A stretch of 10,823 nucleotides of DNA from Bacteroidales bacterium (GTDB lineage: Bacteria; Bacteroidota; Bacteroidia; Bacteroidales; SM23-62): positions 1 to 10,823 of the forward strand of contig JADHVS010000152.1 of the NCBI GenBank assembly GCA_016783865.1, given 5' to 3'. Made by a program: the position numbers and the translations under genes. The number at the start of each line of letters is the position of its first letter. Position 1 is the first letter of the stretch. Shown piece by piece: positions 1-7,818 of the stretch. The notes beneath the pieces were generated by a model. It was given only the letters and a program-made list of their open reading frames with translations. It ran no database searches and had not been told where the DNA came from.

Positions 1-90
1 GATGTTGAGCAGGTATCCGACACCCTCCGTCTCTACTACAGCGTAAGCCGGATTCCGCTCGGTCAGTTTGCCTTTGATGTAGTCGTACAT
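1..90 (-). CDS. ruvA: Holliday junction branch migration protein RuvA, N-terminal fragment
   Basis: The first 30 codons, read leftwards from the ATG at 90, give MYDYIKGKL followed by a [25 protein letters not shown] OB-fold start. This matches the highly conserved beginning of RuvA (M-Y/I-x-Y-I-K-G, then a conserved G-x-G-Y). RuvA binds the four-way junction as a tetramer and loads the RuvB motor during recombinational repair in the cytoplasm. The gene is cut by the left window edge, so completeness cannot be judged. The ATG at 90 is preferred because it matches the family start; the frame stays open only about ten codons further upstream. A -7 box lies about 25 bp upstream, and the S23-protein element begins right behind it. 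Confidence 0.88.
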
Positions 91-114
91 GAAACGGGCG
101 ATTTCAAAAGGAGG

Positions 115-122
115 CAAAGATA
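115..122 (-). promoter_or_regulatory. Putative -7 box of the ruvA promoter
   Basis: On the minus strand this reads TATCTTTG, an exact match to the Bacteroidota -7 consensus TAnnTTTG, 24 bp before the ruvA ATG. No clear TTTG is present at the -33 position, which falls inside the heptamer array starting at about 131. The element may therefore have replaced the original -33 region. The consensus match is seen; promoter activity is inferred. Confidence 0.45.
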
Positions 123-130
123 AGAATTAA

Positions 131-192
131 AGTCAGAAGTTAGAAGTACGAAGTACGAACGTAAGTAGGAAGTACAAAGGACGAAGTTCGAA
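131..192 (+). repeat. Degenerate heptamer array A1 (3' arm of S23 element 1)
   Basis: On the plus strand this is a run of 7-bp units such as GTCAGAA, GTTAGAA, GTACGAA (twice), GTACAAA, GGACGAA and GTTCGAA. The 7-bp rhythm is broken by the internal motif GAACGTAAGTAGGAAG at 157-172. It abuts the stop codon of the four-helix-bundle gene and faces array A2 in opposite orientation: 139-179 matches the reverse complement of 638-664 apart from extra heptads and a few mismatches. GTCAGAAGTTAG at 132-143 recurs in array A4. Confidence 0.8.
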
Positions 193-567
193 CTATTTTT
201 TTGAATTCCGAAGTATCATATTTGATTTCACCGTTTTGATGCTGGTTACAAAAATCGCCAGTAATTCATGAGCTTCCTGAATTAGAGAGGCGAGAACCGT
301 GCCGGAGCCAATTCTTCTTTTTTCCAGTATTTCAAGCCAGTAAAGGGTTTCATCGGTTTCCTCCTCCACAATTTTCAATTTATTAAGAAAATCTCTTGCA
401 GATTTTGATCTAATTGCAGCACGATAGTTTGCACCAATGGATGAGGAGGATCGTAGAACCTGATCTGAAATTATCCAGATCGCTCTGCTATCTGAAAGAC
501 TTTCAACAAAATCCATGATTCTGACGGTGAACATGAACGTGCGATTTTTAAGGTCGGTTGTTTTCAT
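193..567 (-). CDS. Four-helix-bundle protein, 23S rRNA intervening-sequence (S23) family, copy 1
   Basis: The product is 124 aa and looks entirely helical. It has the family hallmarks LLRSSSSIGANYRAA-like (38-51), the basic stretch RSKSARDFLNKLKI (53-66) and the acidic EEETDETLYWLE (68-79). The family (TIGR02436/PF05635) was first seen as the ORF inside intervening sequences of 23S rRNA; it is related to the Avd accessory protein of diversity-generating retroelements and is thought to bind nucleic acid. Its precise role is unknown. The frame stays open far upstream, but the ATG at 567 is chosen because copy 2 aligns with it without gaps over all 124 residues (91 identical by my count). The gene is flanked by inverted heptamer arrays and preceded by a 46-bp leader shared with copy 2. 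The gene is not inside an rRNA here. Confidence 0.85.
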   Translation of the reverse strand: MKTTDLKNRTFMFTVRIMDFVESLSDSRAIWIISDQVLRSSSSIGANYRAAIRSKSARDFLNKLKIVEEETDETLYWLEILEKRRIGSGTVLASLIQEAHELLAIFVTSIKTVKSNMILRNSKK

Positions 568-613
568 ACGTGTTTTACACATTAATCCGGAAAAATGCCC
601 AAAGGTTATACGT
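568..613 (-). promoter_or_regulatory. Conserved 46-nt leader of S23 gene copy 1
   Basis: Read on the minus strand, the 46 nt before the ATG align without gaps to the 46 nt before copy 2 (1453-1498), with 33 identical by hand count. The best conserved block is ATAACCTTTRGGC, followed by GATTAA and GTAAAAC. TAACCTTTG resembles the -7 consensus with one extra base between its halves. The conservation is as high as that of the coding region, so the leader seems to travel with the gene. Whether it is a promoter, a translation signal or an RNA structure cannot be told. Confidence 0.5.
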
Positions 614-637
614 CTAAGTAAAAAATCTTCAATCCAA

Positions 638-688
638 CTTTGTACTTCGTATTTACATTCTAACTTTGTACTTTGTACTTTGTACTTT
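638..688 (-). repeat. Degenerate heptamer array A2 (5' arm of S23 element 1)
   Basis: On the minus strand this reads three GTACAAA units, GTTAGAA, then the internal motif GAATGTAAATACGAAG (645-660), then GTACAAAG. It is the inverted partner of array A1 across the S23 gene. It ends 11 bp before the sirtuin start codon, and on the plus strand it contains promoter-like boxes. Confidence 0.8.
639..668 (+). promoter_or_regulatory. Putative promoter of the sirtuin gene embedded in array A2
   Basis: TTTG at 639-642 and TAACTTTG at 661-668 are separated by 18 bp, matching the Bacteroidota -33/-7 arrangement (TTTG, roughly 19 bp, TAnnTTTG). The sirtuin ATG follows 31 bp after the -7 box. Both boxes are made of heptamer-array sequence, so the mobile-looking element may now drive the neighbouring gene. 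The arrangement is seen; activity is inferred. Confidence 0.45.
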
Positions 689-699
689 ATCATTTTGTT

Positions 700-1404
700 A
701 TGAAAAAACTTGTCGTTTTTACCGGTGCCGGGATCAGCGCTGAAAGCGGGATCAAAACCTTCCGTGACGCCGATGGTTTGTGGAACAACTACCGCATCGA
801 AGAGGTAGCCAGTCCGGTTGCCTGGGAACGGGATCCCCAGATGGTTCTTGACTTTTATAACATGCGCCGCAAACAACTCTATGAGGTGGAGCCCAACGCG
901 GCTCATGACGCACTGGTGGAGCTGGAAAAGGACTTTGACGTGGAAATCGTTACGCAGAATGTGGATGATTTGCACGAACGGGCCGGGTCAACAAAAGTCC
1001 TGCACCTGCATGGGGAAATGAAGAAGGTACGGTCAACCGTCGATCCCTCACTGGTATTTACCCTCGACGGATGGGAGCTGAATCTGGGTGATCTATGTCC
1101 AAAGGGTTCCCAGCTCCGGCCGCACATTGTCTGGTTCGGTGAAGAGGTCCCCAATATCATGATTGCCGGTACGATCGTCCGGAATGCAGATATACTGGTA
1201 GTCATCGGTACCTCTCTCCAGGTTTACCCGGCAGCCGGCCTGTTGCATCACGCTCCGCATACCATCCCGAAGTACCTTATTGATCCGAATGCAGAACCAG
1301 ATCGCTATATTATGAATCTGACGGTGATCAGGGAGAAGGCGACGGTTGGGGTAGTACAACTGGTAAACCAGTTGAGAAGTACGAATTACGAAGGACGAAG
1401 TTAA
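700..1404 (+). CDS. cobB: NAD-dependent protein deacylase, Sir2/CobB family
   Basis: This 234-aa cytoplasmic sirtuin removes lysine acyl groups using NAD+. The NAD-binding motif GAGISAESGIKTFRD is at 9-23, TQNVDDLHERAG at 85-96, catalytic His104 in HLHGE, and RPHIVWFGE at 140-148. Y53-x-x-R56 (FYNMRR) is the pair that lets SIRT5/CobB-type class III enzymes accept succinyl or malonyl groups. The zinc-binding module is reduced: only one cysteine (Cys133) is visible between 106 and 150, as I recall for related Bacteroidota sirtuins. I chose the ATG at 700 because MKKLVVFTGAGIS is the family start; nine more upstream codons would come from the heptamer array. The last eight residues (227-234) and the stop codon are encoded by heptamer array A3, so the original C-terminus was probably replaced. 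Confidence 0.93.
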   Translation: MKKLVVFTGAGISAESGIKTFRDADGLWNNYRIEEVASPVAWERDPQMVLDFYNMRRKQLYEVEPNAAHDALVELEKDFDVEIVTQNVDDLHERAGSTKVLHLHGEMKKVRSTVDPSLVFTLDGWELNLGDLCPKGSQLRPHIVWFGEEVPNIMIAGTIVRNADILVVIGTSLQVYPAAGLLHHAPHTIPKYLIDPNAEPDRYIMNLTVIREKATVGVVQLVNQLRSTNYEGRS

Positions 1405-1440
1405 AACGCAACTACGAAATACGAAGGTAGATTTACAAAG
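1377..1440 (+). repeat. Degenerate heptamer array A3 (5' arm of S23 element 2)
   Basis: Heptads GTACGAA, TTACGAA, GGACGAA and GTTAAAA run from 1379 to 1406. They are followed by the register-breaking motif AAACGCAACTACGAAA (1404-1419), then ATACGAA and GGTAGATTTACAAAG. The array overlaps the sirtuin 3' end, and its GTTAA supplies the stop codon. Apart from one extra heptad, the middle is nearly the same as array A5 at 7757-7818. Confidence 0.8.
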
Positions 1441-1452
1441 TTTTTTCTTGGG

Positions 1453-1498
1453 ACATATAACCTTTAGGCTAATTCGCCGATTAAGTGGTAAAACCCAT
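1453..1498 (+). promoter_or_regulatory. Conserved 46-nt leader of S23 gene copy 2
   Basis: This is the counterpart of the leader at 568-613: equal length, no gaps, about 72 percent identity, with the shared block ATAACCTTTAGGC. It links array A3 to the start codon of copy 2. An in-frame ATG at 1448 would extend the protein by 17 residues across the leader, but that ATG is not matched in copy 1. Confidence 0.5.
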
Positions 1499-1873
1499 AT
1501 GAAACCAATAGACCTAAAGGAAAGGACCTTGAACTTCACTGTTAGGATTATGAATTTCGTTGAAAGTCTTCCGCAAACACAAGCTGTCCGGATAGTTTCA
1601 AATCAGCTTTTGCGATCCTCCTCTTCTCTGGGAGCAAATTACAGGGCAGCAAGGCGATCAAAGTCGGGAAGAGATTTTATCAATAAACTGAAAATTGTGG
1701 AAGAAGAAACGGATGAAACCCTGTATTGGCTTGAGGTTCTGGAAAAAAGAAAAATTGGTTCCAAGGAAGTTCTAAGTCCATTGCTAAAAGAAGCCCATGA
1801 ATTGTTGGCAATCTTTGTGACCAGTATTAACACTGCTAAATCAAACTTATCTTTACAAAATCTGAAGAAATAG
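1499..1873 (+). CDS. Four-helix-bundle protein, 23S rRNA intervening-sequence (S23) family, copy 2
   Basis: This 124-aa all-helical protein is collinear with copy 1 (193-567), with 33 substitutions and no gaps. The core LLRSSSSLGANYRAA, SKSGRDFINKLKIVEEE and TDETLYWLEVLEKR is almost unchanged, and so is the late helix EAHELLAIFVTSI. Differences cluster in residues 25-37 and 89-97. The family is known from ORFs in excised 23S rRNA intervening sequences and is related to DGR Avd proteins, but free-standing members have no established role. The start at 1499 follows from alignment with copy 1. The gene lies between two converging neighbours (sirtuin and nucleotidyltransferase remnant), with heptamer arrays on both sides. 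Lack of disruption and the conservative changes suggest that both copies are under selection. Confidence 0.86.
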   Translation: MKPIDLKERTLNFTVRIMNFVESLPQTQAVRIVSNQLLRSSSSLGANYRAARRSKSGRDFINKLKIVEEETDETLYWLEVLEKRKIGSKEVLSPLLKEAHELLAIFVTSINTAKSNLSLQNLKK

Positions 1874-1910
1874 TTTCTGACTAACTTCTGACCTCCGGCT
1901 TCCGGCTTCG
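1874..1910 (-). repeat. Degenerate heptamer array A4 (3' arm of S23 element 2)
   Basis: On the minus strand this reads GCCGGAA, GCCGGAG, GTCAGAA, GTTAG. It is in the opposite orientation to A3, on the other side of the S23 gene. It shares GTCAGAAGTTAG with A1 (132-143). It encodes the last residues and the stop codon of the nucleotidyltransferase remnant. Its match to A3 is much weaker than that of the A1/A2 pair. Confidence 0.65.
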
Positions 1911-2605: not shown

Positions 2606-3285
2606 TTACCTGTGTGGGCGATGAAATCCAGGATCAGGTTCCTTTTAACCTCCGGGTCATGGTAATCAATCGCATCGCTTTCATCCTCCTCTTCCCGTTC
2701 AAAGAATTCCTCTGCCTCCGCCTCGGTGATGAAATGGAAATTGCCGTGTCCTAGCCTTTTTTCCAGGTGTGCAAGCACCCTGTTTTTTTCGCCGGGGTTT
2801 TCGGGACTGGAGACGTAAAGCGGTTTCCCTTTATATCCGAATTCTATATCAATAAGTTTTACATTCTCCGTATCTTCCTCCAGGATATATTTTGTCAGTT
2901 CAAACGATTTATGAGGGTGAAAACCAAATTCCTCCGCGAATTCAATGGCCCCATAGATAATGTTATGCGCCAGCGGGTAATCCACTTTCCTGATCCGGAT
3001 CCCGGAATCATTGGCCCATTGCTGCTTGTCGAGGAATTCACGGAAATCCAATGGATGCTGGTTGAAGTTCCAGAAAGTATCTTTCACTCCAAGGCAGTAT
3101 AGATCAACCATAAAGGCTCCGTGGGTGACGTTGCCGTTGATGTGTAGCCTGGTCACAAGGATCATGGCAAATCCCGATTCTATCCAGTTATCGTTGATAT
3201 AACAAGTTCCGATGGGCAGCGTTCTGGTCCGTGTGCGGATGTATTTTTCAGGGGTTAAGGGAGGTTGTTTGTGATGTTTGTTCAT
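2587..3285 (-). CDS. Conserved hypothetical protein (probable 5' part of a split gene)
   Basis: The frame of 232 aa begins MNKHHKQPPLTPEKYIRTR. It has conserved-looking blocks LPIGTCYINDNW (23-34), ILVTRLHINGN (42-52), DLYCLGVKDTF (61-71), AHNIIYGAIEFAEE (106-119) and TKYILEEDTE (131-140). A very acidic stretch lies at 187-206. I recall similar unnamed proteins in Bacteroidota, but no function is established. There are no signal peptide or membrane segments, so it is probably cytoplasmic. The stop at 2587 seems premature, because coding-like sequence continues in two other frames to 2085. It starts 51 bp after the helicase stop codon and is likely co-transcribed with it. Confidence 0.7.
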   Translation of the reverse strand: MNKHHKQPPLTPEKYIRTRTRTLPIGTCYINDNWIESGFAMILVTRLHINGNVTHGAFMVDLYCLGVKDTFWNFNQHPLDFREFLDKQQWANDSGIRIRKVDYPLAHNIIYGAIEFAEEFGFHPHKSFELTKYILEEDTENVKLIDIEFGYKGKPLYVSSPENPGEKNRVLAHLEKRLGHGNFHFITEAEAEEFFEREEEDESDAIDYHDPEVKRNLILDFIAHTGNPKKLR

Positions 3286-3336
3286 CGTGTATAAAGATTA
3301 CCGAATTTGATCATGAAAGCATCCGGAATGTATTGA

Positions 3337-6198
3337 TCAGTAAGGGTCTCTGTGCCACCCGTAGCCCTGCCGTCTCAGCTCCTCTTCCCGTTCTCGTTTT
3401 TTCCTTTCTTTCTCCCACTGCCGCCGTAATTCATCCATTTCTTTCTTTTGTTTATCCACAGAGTGGTCTATCAGCTCCCTCAGGCTGATCTGGCTGTCTA
3501 TAATATCTTTTACAGGCGTCCATGAATCGCGATAACGAATCAGCATGCGCGGGTTCAGTATGTACGCCCCACGTCCGATGCGCCTGAACAGTTTTTTATT
3601 GTATGGATTATGGCTGTCGGTCTCATGTTTTGCCAAAAGGGCAAGCCAGTATCCCCGTTTCTTGCGGTAATCGGGGAGGATGTTTTCAGGAAAACCTTCA
3701 AGATTCAGCAGGAAGTCGTCGACCCGGATCCCGTATGCCTCGTAATGGCGTTTGGATTGAAGTATGGCGGATTCTACGGCGATGAAAAGGTGCACCATGA
3801 GGAATTCGATCTTATGGGGATCGATCTTGATAAGCTGCCCATCTACCTGTACGCTCAGGGCATCGGATAGCAGCATCGGGTAAATCTTTCCAAGCCGGTG
3901 TTTCGCGTACTCAATGCTCACATATGCCTGTTGAAGGGCGATCTGTACCGGAGTCTTATGGAAAGTATCAGGCAGGTCGGGGTTCGCCCCGTTTTCGAGC
4001 AGGGAGGTGGTGATCTTCACCGCTCCTGAAAAGACGGCTGCATGAAGCGGGGTAAAATTATGGATATCACGGTAATCAATTCCGTACTTGTTAACTTCCT
4101 GCACCACCATTTTCAGGTTTTCATCGCGGTAATAGTGGTAATACCTGCGGAAGATGGAACCGCGTTCATTCTCGTATTTTTCGGCCCGGCGGTAATTCAA
4201 TCCGGCCAGTTTCTCCAGGATGTAGGTTTGATTATGGATAAGCGCAAAATCAAACAGATGGTCCTTTGCTTTTTTATTGAAATGTTCCGGGTCGAGGGCC
4301 TCGTTCCTTAGAGCCATGTATTTCTCAAGGGTCATGGGTTCCCAGTTCGGTACCTCGGTAACCAGGATGTTTTTCCGGATGGATTCAGCCTGCTCCGATT
4401 TGCCCATTCTCTCCAGCCTTCGCGCTTCCCGTTTCCAGTCATCTGCAGAGGAGATATCCTCTTTGAAGACTGTCTCCCGCGCCTCTTCCGAAATCCCTAA
4501 CAGATGGATCAGTTTATGCCCGCGGGTTTGTTCCACGATGTAAACGTTCTTCACAGCCCTTGTGATGGCCACGTACAGGGAGTTGCTATAGAATTTGTAG
4601 GCATCCAGAGATTTATCGCTCTTGTCCCTGCTCCGGGAGTATGCCGGATTTTCCCCGTTTACATGCTCAGCGTTCACCCCCTCGCAGATGCTGTTGAATT
4701 CCGCGGCATTGTCCGATATGAAATTGTATAGAATGATGTTCTCGTATTCCAGCCCCTTGGATTCCTGCACCGAGAAGAGCAGGGGGGAACGAAAAATGTT
4801 TCCGGCCCGGGCTTTGTCTTCATTCCGCAATACCAAAACGGCATAATTGACCGATTTGCCGGTTTTGCGTGCCAGTTCAGCAACCGTCTTATGCTTCTCA
4901 TCAAGGAACACCATCTCGCCTTCCGCCTGTGAAACAGTGGTCAACAGGTAATTGCTCTCCTTGTCCAGCGATCCGAATCGGGCAATTTTAATCTTTAAAA
5001 GGCGGTTGGCGAGTTCGGAAACAGCAGGTGTGTTGCGGTAATTGGCATGAAGAATGCGGATGTCGTCGCTCCGGAAATCATTCCGGTAGAACATGCTCTT
5101 CAGGTGCGACCAGGAAAAGAAGTTGGGATGAACTACCTGGTTGGCGTCCCCGCAAAGGATGAAATTCCCTGCCTTGGTTAATGACTTCAGGATAAGAAAA
5201 AGCTGAATATTCGTGAAATCCTGCACCTCATCCACAACGATGAAATCATAGCGGGGTTGGCAAACCTCCAGCAGGTTATGGGAATAGATATTGATGTCAT
5301 AAAATCCCTCCTCCTTCAGGAAGAGCAGGTATTTCTCAAACAGGGTATACACCGTTTCCCTTTCGGTGGAAAGGAAAATGGATTGCTTCACCCCGAGGGA
5401 GGTGTAGTCGGCGGCTAAAAGGTATTCTTTCGTGATGTCCATCCCTGTGATCACCCCCCGGAACTCCTCATACACTTTGTGGGCATCCTTCAAACGGGTA
5501 GATTGTCTGAAACCGAAGAACCAGCGCTCAAATGACCTGAAATCCATCTCTTTGTTTTCCGGGATCCGGATGGTCTCAATGAATTCGCGGTAGGAAAGAA
5601 AATCGACCTCCTGGTTCTCGTTCTCGTACTGGTTTGAATAATACCAGCGCGAGGAGTTCTCAGCAAGGTAAGCAGAAAGGGTTACATACAGGATGCGCCC
5701 CTTCAGGGTTTTGATTTTTTCAAGTGTCAGCGCTGTTTTACCGCTCCCGGCCGATCCTATGATGATCTGGGGCAAGGGATAGTGGAGGATCTCTTCCTGG
5801 TTGTCGTCGAAGGAGAGAAATTTATCGAGCAGGTGGAATTTAGGATAGCGTTTATTGATGTATTGCATCGCAACCACATCCTCCGCCGGGGGTGCTGTAT
5901 TGCTCAGAGGCACCAGCTTTGATTGATCAATTGTCGCTCCGTGCAGAAAACGGGAACCTGCGTAATTGTGGTTCAGGATCAGCTCAAGGATCAGCAGGTA
6001 AATTTTTTCCTGATGGCGGCCGAAGCGGAAAAGCAAACGGTTTTCCTGATCAAGCCGGGCACGGTAAAATCCCGTACCGGTCATTTTCTTTACTTCGGCT
6101 GCAGTAAAATTCCCCGAAACCAGTTCTTCCAGTGTTTTATCGAACTGTTTGCGGAGTTTCCCGGGATTCAGATCGTTAAGCAGGAGGATCTCGTACAT
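3337..6198 (-). CDS. UvrD-like SF1 helicase with RelE/ParE-like N-terminus and ankyrin repeats
   Basis: The product is a 953-aa, probably cytoplasmic, multidomain protein. Residues 1-85 resemble a RelE/ParE-fold module, with K-M-T-G-T-G-F-Y-R-A-R-L-D (38-50), NRLLFRFG and LILNHNY. The helicase core has Walker A G148SAGSGKT155, Walker B VVDEVQD (321-327), GDANQ (350-354), NYR (386-388), QESKGLEYENIIL (478-490) and VAITRA (543-548). These are the SF1A motifs of ATP-driven 3'-5' translocases. An insert lies between motifs V and VI (about 496-535). Residues 711-770 form ankyrin-like repeats (NFTPLHAAVFSG, LLENGANPD, KTPVQIAL). The tail at 910-945 is a highly charged coiled coil. The architecture recalls eukaryotic TRANK1-like proteins. 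Cellular role unknown; repair, RNA metabolism or defence are all conceivable. Confidence 0.85.
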   Translation of the reverse strand: MYEILLLNDLNPGKLRKQFDKTLEELVSGNFTAAEVKKMTGTGFYRARLDQENRLLFRFGRHQEKIYLLILELILNHNYAGSRFLHGATIDQSKLVPLSNTAPPAEDVVAMQYINKRYPKFHLLDKFLSFDDNQEEILHYPLPQIIIGSAGSGKTALTLEKIKTLKGRILYVTLSAYLAENSSRWYYSNQYENENQEVDFLSYREFIETIRIPENKEMDFRSFERWFFGFRQSTRLKDAHKVYEEFRGVITGMDITKEYLLAADYTSLGVKQSIFLSTERETVYTLFEKYLLFLKEEGFYDINIYSHNLLEVCQPRYDFIVVDEVQDFTNIQLFLILKSLTKAGNFILCGDANQVVHPNFFSWSHLKSMFYRNDFRSDDIRILHANYRNTPAVSELANRLLKIKIARFGSLDKESNYLLTTVSQAEGEMVFLDEKHKTVAELARKTGKSVNYAVLVLRNEDKARAGNIFRSPLLFSVQESKGLEYENIILYNFISDNAAEFNSICEGVNAEHVNGENPAYSRSRDKSDKSLDAYKFYSNSLYVAITRAVKNVYIVEQTRGHKLIHLLGISEEARETVFKEDISSADDWKREARRLERMGKSEQAESIRKNILVTEVPNWEPMTLEKYMALRNEALDPEHFNKKAKDHLFDFALIHNQTYILEKLAGLNYRRAEKYENERGSIFRRYYHYYRDENLKMVVQEVNKYGIDYRDIHNFTPLHAAVFSGAVKITTSLLENGANPDLPDTFHKTPVQIALQQAYVSIEYAKHRLGKIYPMLLSDALSVQVDGQLIKIDPHKIEFLMVHLFIAVESAILQSKRHYEAYGIRVDDFLLNLEGFPENILPDYRKKRGYWLALLAKHETDSHNPYNKKLFRRIGRGAYILNPRMLIRYRDSWTPVKDIIDSQISLRELIDHSVDKQKKEMDELRRQWEKERKKREREEELRRQGYGWHRDPY

Positions 6199-7752: not shown

Positions 7753-7756
7753 TTTC

Positions 7757-7818
7757 ATACTTCGTCGTTCTACCTTCGTACTTGCGTTCTAACTTTGTGC
7801 CTCGTACTTCGTACTTTA
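7757..7818 (-). repeat. Solitary degenerate heptamer array A5
   Basis: On the minus strand, right from the TlpA stop codon, it reads GTACGAA, GTACGAG, GCACAAA, GTTAGAAC, the motif GAACGCAAGTACGAAG (7774-7789), GGTAGAA and GACGAAG. It matches array A3 best, lacking one heptad. No S23 gene, leader or second arm accompanies it. Confidence 0.78.

Follow-up and report, generated by a model that had tools for sequence, protein, structure and literature searches.

Contig JADHVS010000152.1 of the Bacteroidales bacterium assembly GCA_016783865.1 was analysed over its full 10,823 bp (the window) and carries two genes for four-helix-bundle proteins of the S23 family, a family also encoded by intervening sequences (IVSs) of 23S rRNA. 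The locus raises the question of what such genes are doing between protein-coding genes and beside arrays of tandem 7-bp repeats. The S23 units are best read as free-standing relatives of the 23S rRNA IVSs that spread through the arrays. Both window genes are considered, with a probability of about 0.6, to belong to a widespread group of small elements built as a hairpin, with an S23 (IVS-type) gene as its loop and two inverted arrays of a single word as its stem.

Both open reading frames (ORFs) encode 124 aa, as the preliminary description had stated, and exceed the curated cut-offs of PF05635 (55.6 and 53.4 bits; cut-off 33.8) and TIGR02436 (80.9 and 78.9 bits; cut-off 24). Copy 1 (193..567, minus strand) lies between ruvA and cobB and copy 2 (1499..1873, plus strand) after cobB, with the Sir2/cobB gene between them; this placement was confirmed by RuvA_N and Sir2/cobB matches. 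The two proteins are identical at 91 of 124 residues (92 of 125 counting the stop), and the solved structure nearest to copy 2 by sequence is 2rld. The whole units measure 551 bp (copy 1) and 535 bp (copy 2), against the roughly 540-560 bp given before, with 390 of 519 aligned bases identical. Copy 1 is bounded downstream of its stop codon by an arm of degenerate GAAGTAC/GTACGAA heptads (143..192, plus strand) and upstream of its leader by a second arm (631..690, minus strand; ACTTTGT heptads on the plus strand; lag-7 region 631-711). Its leader (568..610, minus strand), conserved as TATAACCTTT-N-GATTAA, runs to the ATG. In copy 2 the corresponding parts are a GAAGTAC upstream array (1376..1430, plus strand; lag-7 region 1375-1426), a leader (1456..1498, plus strand) and a weak downstream array (1883..1910, plus strand; GACTAACTTCTGAC), which does not match the upstream arm. 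The leader was found to be 43 nt long from TATAACCTTT to the ATG in both copies, not 46 nt. Heptads had been described at both ends of both copies; Tandem Repeats Finder detected period-7 arrays at 143-192, 637-688 and 1376-1401, but after copy 2 just 2.3 copies of TCCGGCT (1894-1909). The lag-7 maximum in the window was 30 of 42 in 42-base windows, compared with at most 25 in 200 mononucleotide shuffles, and the other lags (2-6 and 8-15) did not exceed 23 of 42, so lag 7 alone stands out. The arms of copy 1 (143-192 and 637-690) pair in inverted orientation with a score of 22.5, and its ends are complementary in the manner of an IVS stem. The single layout ascribed to both copies therefore holds for the position of the parts, but not for matched arms, which copy 2 lacks (score 8.0).

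To compare loci, six genomes close to the window were taken as a genus set (G001, G016, G017, G018, G019 and G020), G001 containing L001, the closest relative of copy 2. They yielded 61 PF05635 matches in total. The 61 compiled loci include the two window genes, and the contig-end matches G020:C9 and G020:C211 were left out. Seven array-less loci of one operon-bound lineage were excluded from the arm test, and 48 of the remaining 54 had both flanks; since orthologues are among them, these loci are not independent. Own arms were compared with non-orthologous cross-locus arm pairs. In inverted orientation they reached the 99th percentile of the cross pairs at 36 of the 48 loci and the 95th percentile at 39; in direct orientation the 99th percentile was reached at none. 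The array unit is mostly 7 bp and elsewhere 8 or 9 bp, varies from locus to locus, and is equal on both arms of a locus.

The hairpin plan with S23 recurs in other Bacteroidota and in Chloroflexota; cyanobacterial plasmids have it too, there in mixed orientations. When one genome per species was scanned, 56 loci coding for relatives of copy 2 came to light, mostly in Bacteroidota as judged by record titles and also in Omnitrophota, Chloroflexi, Acidobacteria and one Fimbriimonadaceae record; across 15 genomes, 1 to 20 S23 matches were counted per genome. After removal of identical cores, the multi-taxon set comprised 75 rows with full flanks, in which the broken-frame loci L048, L051, L053 and L055 each enter twice. 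Period-7 arrays stood upstream of the gene in 48 rows and downstream in 44, with 37 rows having both, compared with 0-2 rows per side for lags 4-6 and 9-12 and with 9 and 4 rows for lag 8. The median score of the upstream flank against the reverse complement of its own downstream flank was 17.0 (9.5 for cross-locus pairs), the own downstream flank was the best among the 75 in 31 rows, and the 99th percentile was reached in inverted orientation by 19 of the 75. With cross pairs within each genome as the baseline, own arms reached the 95th percentile at 17 of 18 loci of G011 (from a Niabella locus; direct 5 of 18), 8 of 9 of G015 (Chloroflexota; direct 1 of 9) and 4 of 7 of G013 (from a Winogradskyella locus; direct 0 of 7). 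S23 was also found on 26 plasmid records, 11 of them from Nostoc. Ten of the 16 plasmid loci tested, two being near-copies from Planktothrix, reached the 95th percentile of cross pairs in inverted orientation. Examples are Nostoc C052 and N6, with near-perfect inverted arrays built of AATTCGT and AATTCGC words. Heptamer arrays of the kind seen at the Nostoc S23 loci are taken to be the short tandemly repeated repetitive (STRR) sequences described in Cyanobacteria in 1990. The preliminary expectation that S23 genes elsewhere would be flanked by inverted arrays was thus borne out in the genus, the multi-taxon rows, the plasmids and G011, G013 and G015.

Three simpler rules were rejected. A strict heptamer rule is contradicted by the 8- and 9-bp units, and fixed terminal inverted repeats by the differences in unit between loci. 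Insertion into a direct array would give equal orientation on both sides, which the 0 of 48 own direct matches in the genus speak against, although some plasmid loci match better in direct orientation.

Plasmid S23 genes of Cyanobacteria and Chloroflexota were also repeatedly observed in defence operons (L247, L248, L250, L255, L259 and L260), with neighbours such as cas1 and cas2, or between DUF1156 and Swt1 genes, or between drmD and mmeI. S23 genes in cas loci were reported earlier, as the accessible part of PMC3936711 indicates.

S23 is present at some orthologous sites and absent from others. In the interval between ruvA (start at window positions 1-90, minus strand; RuvA_N match of 30 aa) and cobB it is absent in G016, G017 and G018, with flanks aligned on both sides. 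The G016 site retains the hairpin GGCAAGTACAAACTTGTACTTGCC, which folds with a z-score of -5.66 relative to shuffles, and its match to the own-site arms beats 56 of 58 other loci. After cobB, at the site of copy 2, G018 alone has both flanks; it contains no S23 and has a one-way array. G016, G017 and G020 likewise have no S23 after cobB, but as a different gene comes next in them, they do not count as truly empty. At the G001 sites C159 and C158, S23 is absent in all five other genus genomes, and the aligned flanks lie 0-160 bp apart. Own-site arms, cut by eye and adjoining the aligned flank, were fitted by 3 of 13 S23-free sequences above all 58 other loci (G018 at C159; G019 and G017 at C158). 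Some S23-free sites hold arrays of unrelated units. The empty sites anticipated in the preliminary description therefore exist, but several are not clean and keep an array or a hairpin.

Decay was recognised by eye at the C82 site, where G001, G018 and G019 have S23, and G016, G017 and G020 retain the leader with, at best, fragments of the gene; S23 there has decayed in place. The C82-type S23 gene of L306 (G016:C117) is internally deleted with both arms kept and lies about 3.7 kb from the next conserved block. In G001, sequences corresponding to window positions 1-192 and 1377-1875 are contiguous, so that neither cobB nor copy 1 stands between the two same-direction arrays. No cobB orthologue was found in G001 (best hit 37% identity), and the arrangement fits a deletion between the arrays. 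Sister S23 genes stand in opposite orientation at one locus in three orthologous pairs, G017:C232/G001:C220 (support 97/45), G018:C70/G019:C69 (support 97/91) and G016:C101/G017:C193 (support 100/100); recombination between the inverted arms would be expected to produce such flips. At a locus near htpG (labelled by eye), five genomes carry S23 of several lineages, with four changes on the tree, at least three of them forced, so that the locus was refilled or its S23 replaced.

Arrays also occur without S23, and their distribution bears on the possibility that they are ordinary intergenic hairpins, such as terminators, grown by slippage, in which S23 merely survives with no functional link. This explanation is unlikely, although it has several points in its favour. 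G001 contains 31 S23-free arrays in 343 kb, S23-free sites can hold arrays of unrelated units, and the available text of PMC4679880 describes heptamer arrays but does not mention S23. Against it stands the fact that the unit is equal on both sides of one S23 gene and different between loci. Inverted pairs with a gene-sized gap are, moreover, strongly enriched at S23. In 742,567 bases from four genomes, the score limit was passed by 13 inverted pairs whose arms lie 200-1000 bp apart; six enclose S23 (eight S23 genes were present), including all four top scores, and seven do not. One example is the pair at 2981-3524 on C110 of G001, which encloses an S23 gene at 3072-3371. The preliminary description had taken arrays equally common away from S23 genes to speak against it, a point on which the 31 S23-free arrays of G001 touch. 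G007 and G012 are also difficult for the hairpin-survival explanation, as they are poor in arrays (3 lag-7 regions in 300 kb) and yet have S23 genes with arrays: two of three G007 genes on both sides (L013) and the third (L070) upstream only, as is L038, the one G012 gene tested.

Many S23-free arrays share their unit with S23 flanks of their own genome. Among the 31 S23-free arrays of G001, 23 match S23 flanks of G001 itself, 8, 12 and 7 match those of G018, G019 and G017, none match those of the distant G011 and G013, and three match those of G015. Equal numbers of loci shrink the own-genome lead of G001 over the genus (0.34 versus 0.17, 0.30 and 0.15). The S23-free arrays of G011 match its own S23 flanks in 5 of 12 cases, versus 0-1 for other genomes. 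All five non-orthologous S23 pairs with at least 70% identity have a common upstream unit (scores of at least 17), two of them joining window copy 1 to copy 2 or to the G001 counterpart of copy 2 and hence not being independent. Among 911 pairs below 30% identity, 0.4% reach an upstream-array score of 18. The window itself has a fifth GAAGTAC-like array (7753-7818), which lacks S23, stands immediately 3' of the stop codon of a thioredoxin-like (AhpC/TSA) gene and aligns with the array at the S23 gene of L001.

The leader is specific to S23. The strict form TATAACCTTT-N8-16-GATTAA, with one base A or T, has three hits on both strands of 343 kb of G001, all directly upstream of S23 in a stretch holding six S23 genes, and a relaxed form precedes 31 of the 61 compiled genes. 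Leader-less S23 genes, as we read them, often closely follow a co-directional gene, and the leader is therefore taken as the putative promoter of the element. Over 18 pairs, dN (nonsynonymous divergence) of S23 was 0.09-0.42 with synonymous sites near or at saturation, which indicates purifying selection. An array-less S23 clade with constant neighbours is present in all six genus genomes (G001:C138, G016:C208, G017:C49, G017:C75, G018:C147, G019:C110 and G020:C356) and possibly represents a domesticated S23.

These data bear on two further alternatives. The arrays might be operators by which S23 controls its own expression, the gene not being a mobile element. The arrays do adjoin the promoter-like, S23-specific leader (3 of 3 strict hits in 343 kb), and MacGregor proposes regulatory roles for heptamer repeats in the portion of PMC4679880 available; we nevertheless regard the operator explanation as quite improbable, because the sites of a regulator should be conserved in sequence, and the one-locus sisters G017:C36 and G016:C52 differ in unit (fork support 81/92, partial). 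Its absence from many orthologous sites also argues against S23 acting as such a regulator. The other alternative, a non-autonomous transposon (miniature inverted-repeat transposable element, MITE) with S23 as cargo, moved in trans by a hairpin-recognising transposase or reverse transcriptase, would explain why copies stand at several sites, why other sites are empty and why the ends are inverted. It is very improbable given the lack of a conserved end sequence, and no target duplication was seen by eye between the filled and empty C158 sites, where the arrays obscure the junction. Y1 transposase (PF01797) was unmatched in G001, which has 16 S23 matches, and in 4 of 6 genus genomes overall, with weak matches in the other two; RVT_1 was unmatched in the many-contig drafts G018, G019 and G020 (3 of 6) despite 15, 9 and 6 PF05635 matches. 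Neither enzyme is thus constant, a point weakened by the fragmented drafts and by the confinement of the transposase search to Y1. In G001 itself, an RVT_1 match (G001:C4:18635-18991) follows the S23 gene of L099 (G001:C4) where the downstream arm is missing, and is perhaps an intron inserted beside the element. Viral carriage was rejected, two viral-contig scans (with S23 copy 1 and a 232-aa neighbour) having confirmed no relative.

Several results weigh against the interpretation of the S23 units as hairpin elements spreading through arrays. Twelve of the 48 genus loci fall below the 99th percentile, including copy 2 of the window, whose arms pair at chance level and lack the IVS-type stem. 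Own arms match in direct orientation at the 99th percentile in 6 of the 75 multi-taxon rows. Seven of the 16 plasmid loci score higher direct than inverted (L246, L247, L249, L250, L253, L255 and L259; L253 is the sole Spirochaetota plasmid locus), L251 gives a tie, and some of the direct-favouring arms mix both orientations. Of four S23-free hairpins folded, only that of G016 lies far beyond the shuffles, the others having z-scores from -0.9 to -1.9, and at 10 of 13 S23-free sites the own-site unit does not exceed all others (nine sites, and the G016 site between ruvA and cobB). Sixteen orthologous pairs were given for an arm comparison aimed at concerted evolution of the arms, one being lost to a short flank; own arms did not surpass cross arms overall (higher in 10 of 15 pairs; Wilcoxon p = 0.59). 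The three flipped pairs are inflated by flank homology, and when they were set aside afterwards, own arms were higher in 10 of 12. Unit sharing drops at once below 70% identity, as the next four S23 pairs (67-69%) include one at 16.0 and three at 8-10.5. Finally, no direct transposition event was seen.

The mechanism proposed for the hairpin elements draws on published observations of related systems. In Coxiella, the IVS has a 28-bp terminal stem and 2-3 tandem heptamers just before the S23 ORF; it is cut out by RNase III, and such inserts replace the tetraloop of a hairpin (PMC4990558, available text). PF05635 resembles Avd, the accessory protein of diversity-generating retroelements (DGRs), according to the accessible part of PMC10053308. 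DGR retrohoming depends on Avd and needs a DNA hairpin in which stem structure matters and sequence is free, the contact of Avd with the hairpin being left open in the portion of PMC3240598 available. From IVS anatomy, the likeness to Avd and hairpin-dependent retrohoming, we therefore propose that an S23 copy may enter or leave hairpin tips whose stem has the same unit, by way of homology or template switching between arrays and without a transposase of its own; the direction would be either insertion or precise loss. The S23 oligomer could aid this step by binding structured nucleic acid, as Avd may in DGR retrohoming. In RNA, the stem would let RNase III excise the insert, so that its presence in an operon would do no harm, as with the 23S rRNA IVS.

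S23 hairpin cassettes thus suggest an overlooked kind of tiny, putatively mobile element, for which no transposase was seen (Y1 being the family searched). No link between S23 genes and flanking arrays outside rRNA was noticed in titles or abstract openings among the matches listed, which is weak evidence of absence. The available text of PMC4990558 states that, more than 25 years on, neither the function nor the origin of the rRNA IVSs is clear, and that of PMC4679880 treats where heptamer arrays come from as an open question. If arrays and S23 form one system, the function of S23, the origin of IVSs and the origin of heptamer arrays become jointly testable, and mobility would be guided by hairpin shape without a known transposase. 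A broader conjecture, offered tentatively and itself rather doubtful, is that S23 heads a cross-phylum class of transposase-free "hairpin-tip" elements that home to a DNA or RNA shape, a stem made of whatever short repeated word, and not to sequence, creating or spreading the 7-9 bp arrays of many genomes; cyanobacterial heptamers, Bacteroidota arrays and 23S IVSs would then be footprints of one system.

Among known systems, the repetitive extragenic palindromic (REP) sequences and their hairpin-forming doublets (REPINs) with REP-associated tyrosine transposases (RAYTs) are short hairpin repeats scattered over the genome, with an associated gene flanked by inverted copies. The gene found here differs in encoding a four-helix bundle and not a Y1 (HUH) transposase, and the unit is locus-specific and tandem. 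Unlike DGRs, the window has no reverse transcriptase among the nine ORFs searched against Pfam. Classical transposons and MITEs differ in having conserved terminal inverted repeats across copies. The arrays had been compared beforehand to degenerate terminal inverted repeats of a mobile unit, which is close in plan; the sequence, however, is not fixed and arrays also occur without S23, and with a locus-specific unit, mostly of 7 but also of 8-9 bp, they do not qualify as the terminal inverted repeats of a transposon. Tandem 7-bp arrays, including TAACTGA repeats, were reported in intergenic DNA of Cyanobacteria, Bacteroidetes and Beggiatoaceae (PMC4679880), and the Nostoc S23 loci carry such arrays. 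In the available text of that source they are described mainly as direct repeats rather than as paired inverted arms, with no link to S23, the terms "s23" and "four helix" having zero occurrences. The 23S rRNA IVSs compared were the helix 9, 25 and 45 types carrying an S23 ORF. Unlike them, the present elements are free-standing between protein genes, often with their own leader, their stem word varies by locus, and many copies occur per genome; an Rfam search of the window gave zero matches, and neither copy lies inside a 23S rRNA helix. The layout is therefore neither a classical mobile element with terminal inverted repeats, nor chance, nor by location an rRNA IVS. It works like an IVS: in both, an S23-family ORF is the loop closed by a stem of inverted ends, as described for the IVS in the accessible part of PMC4990558.

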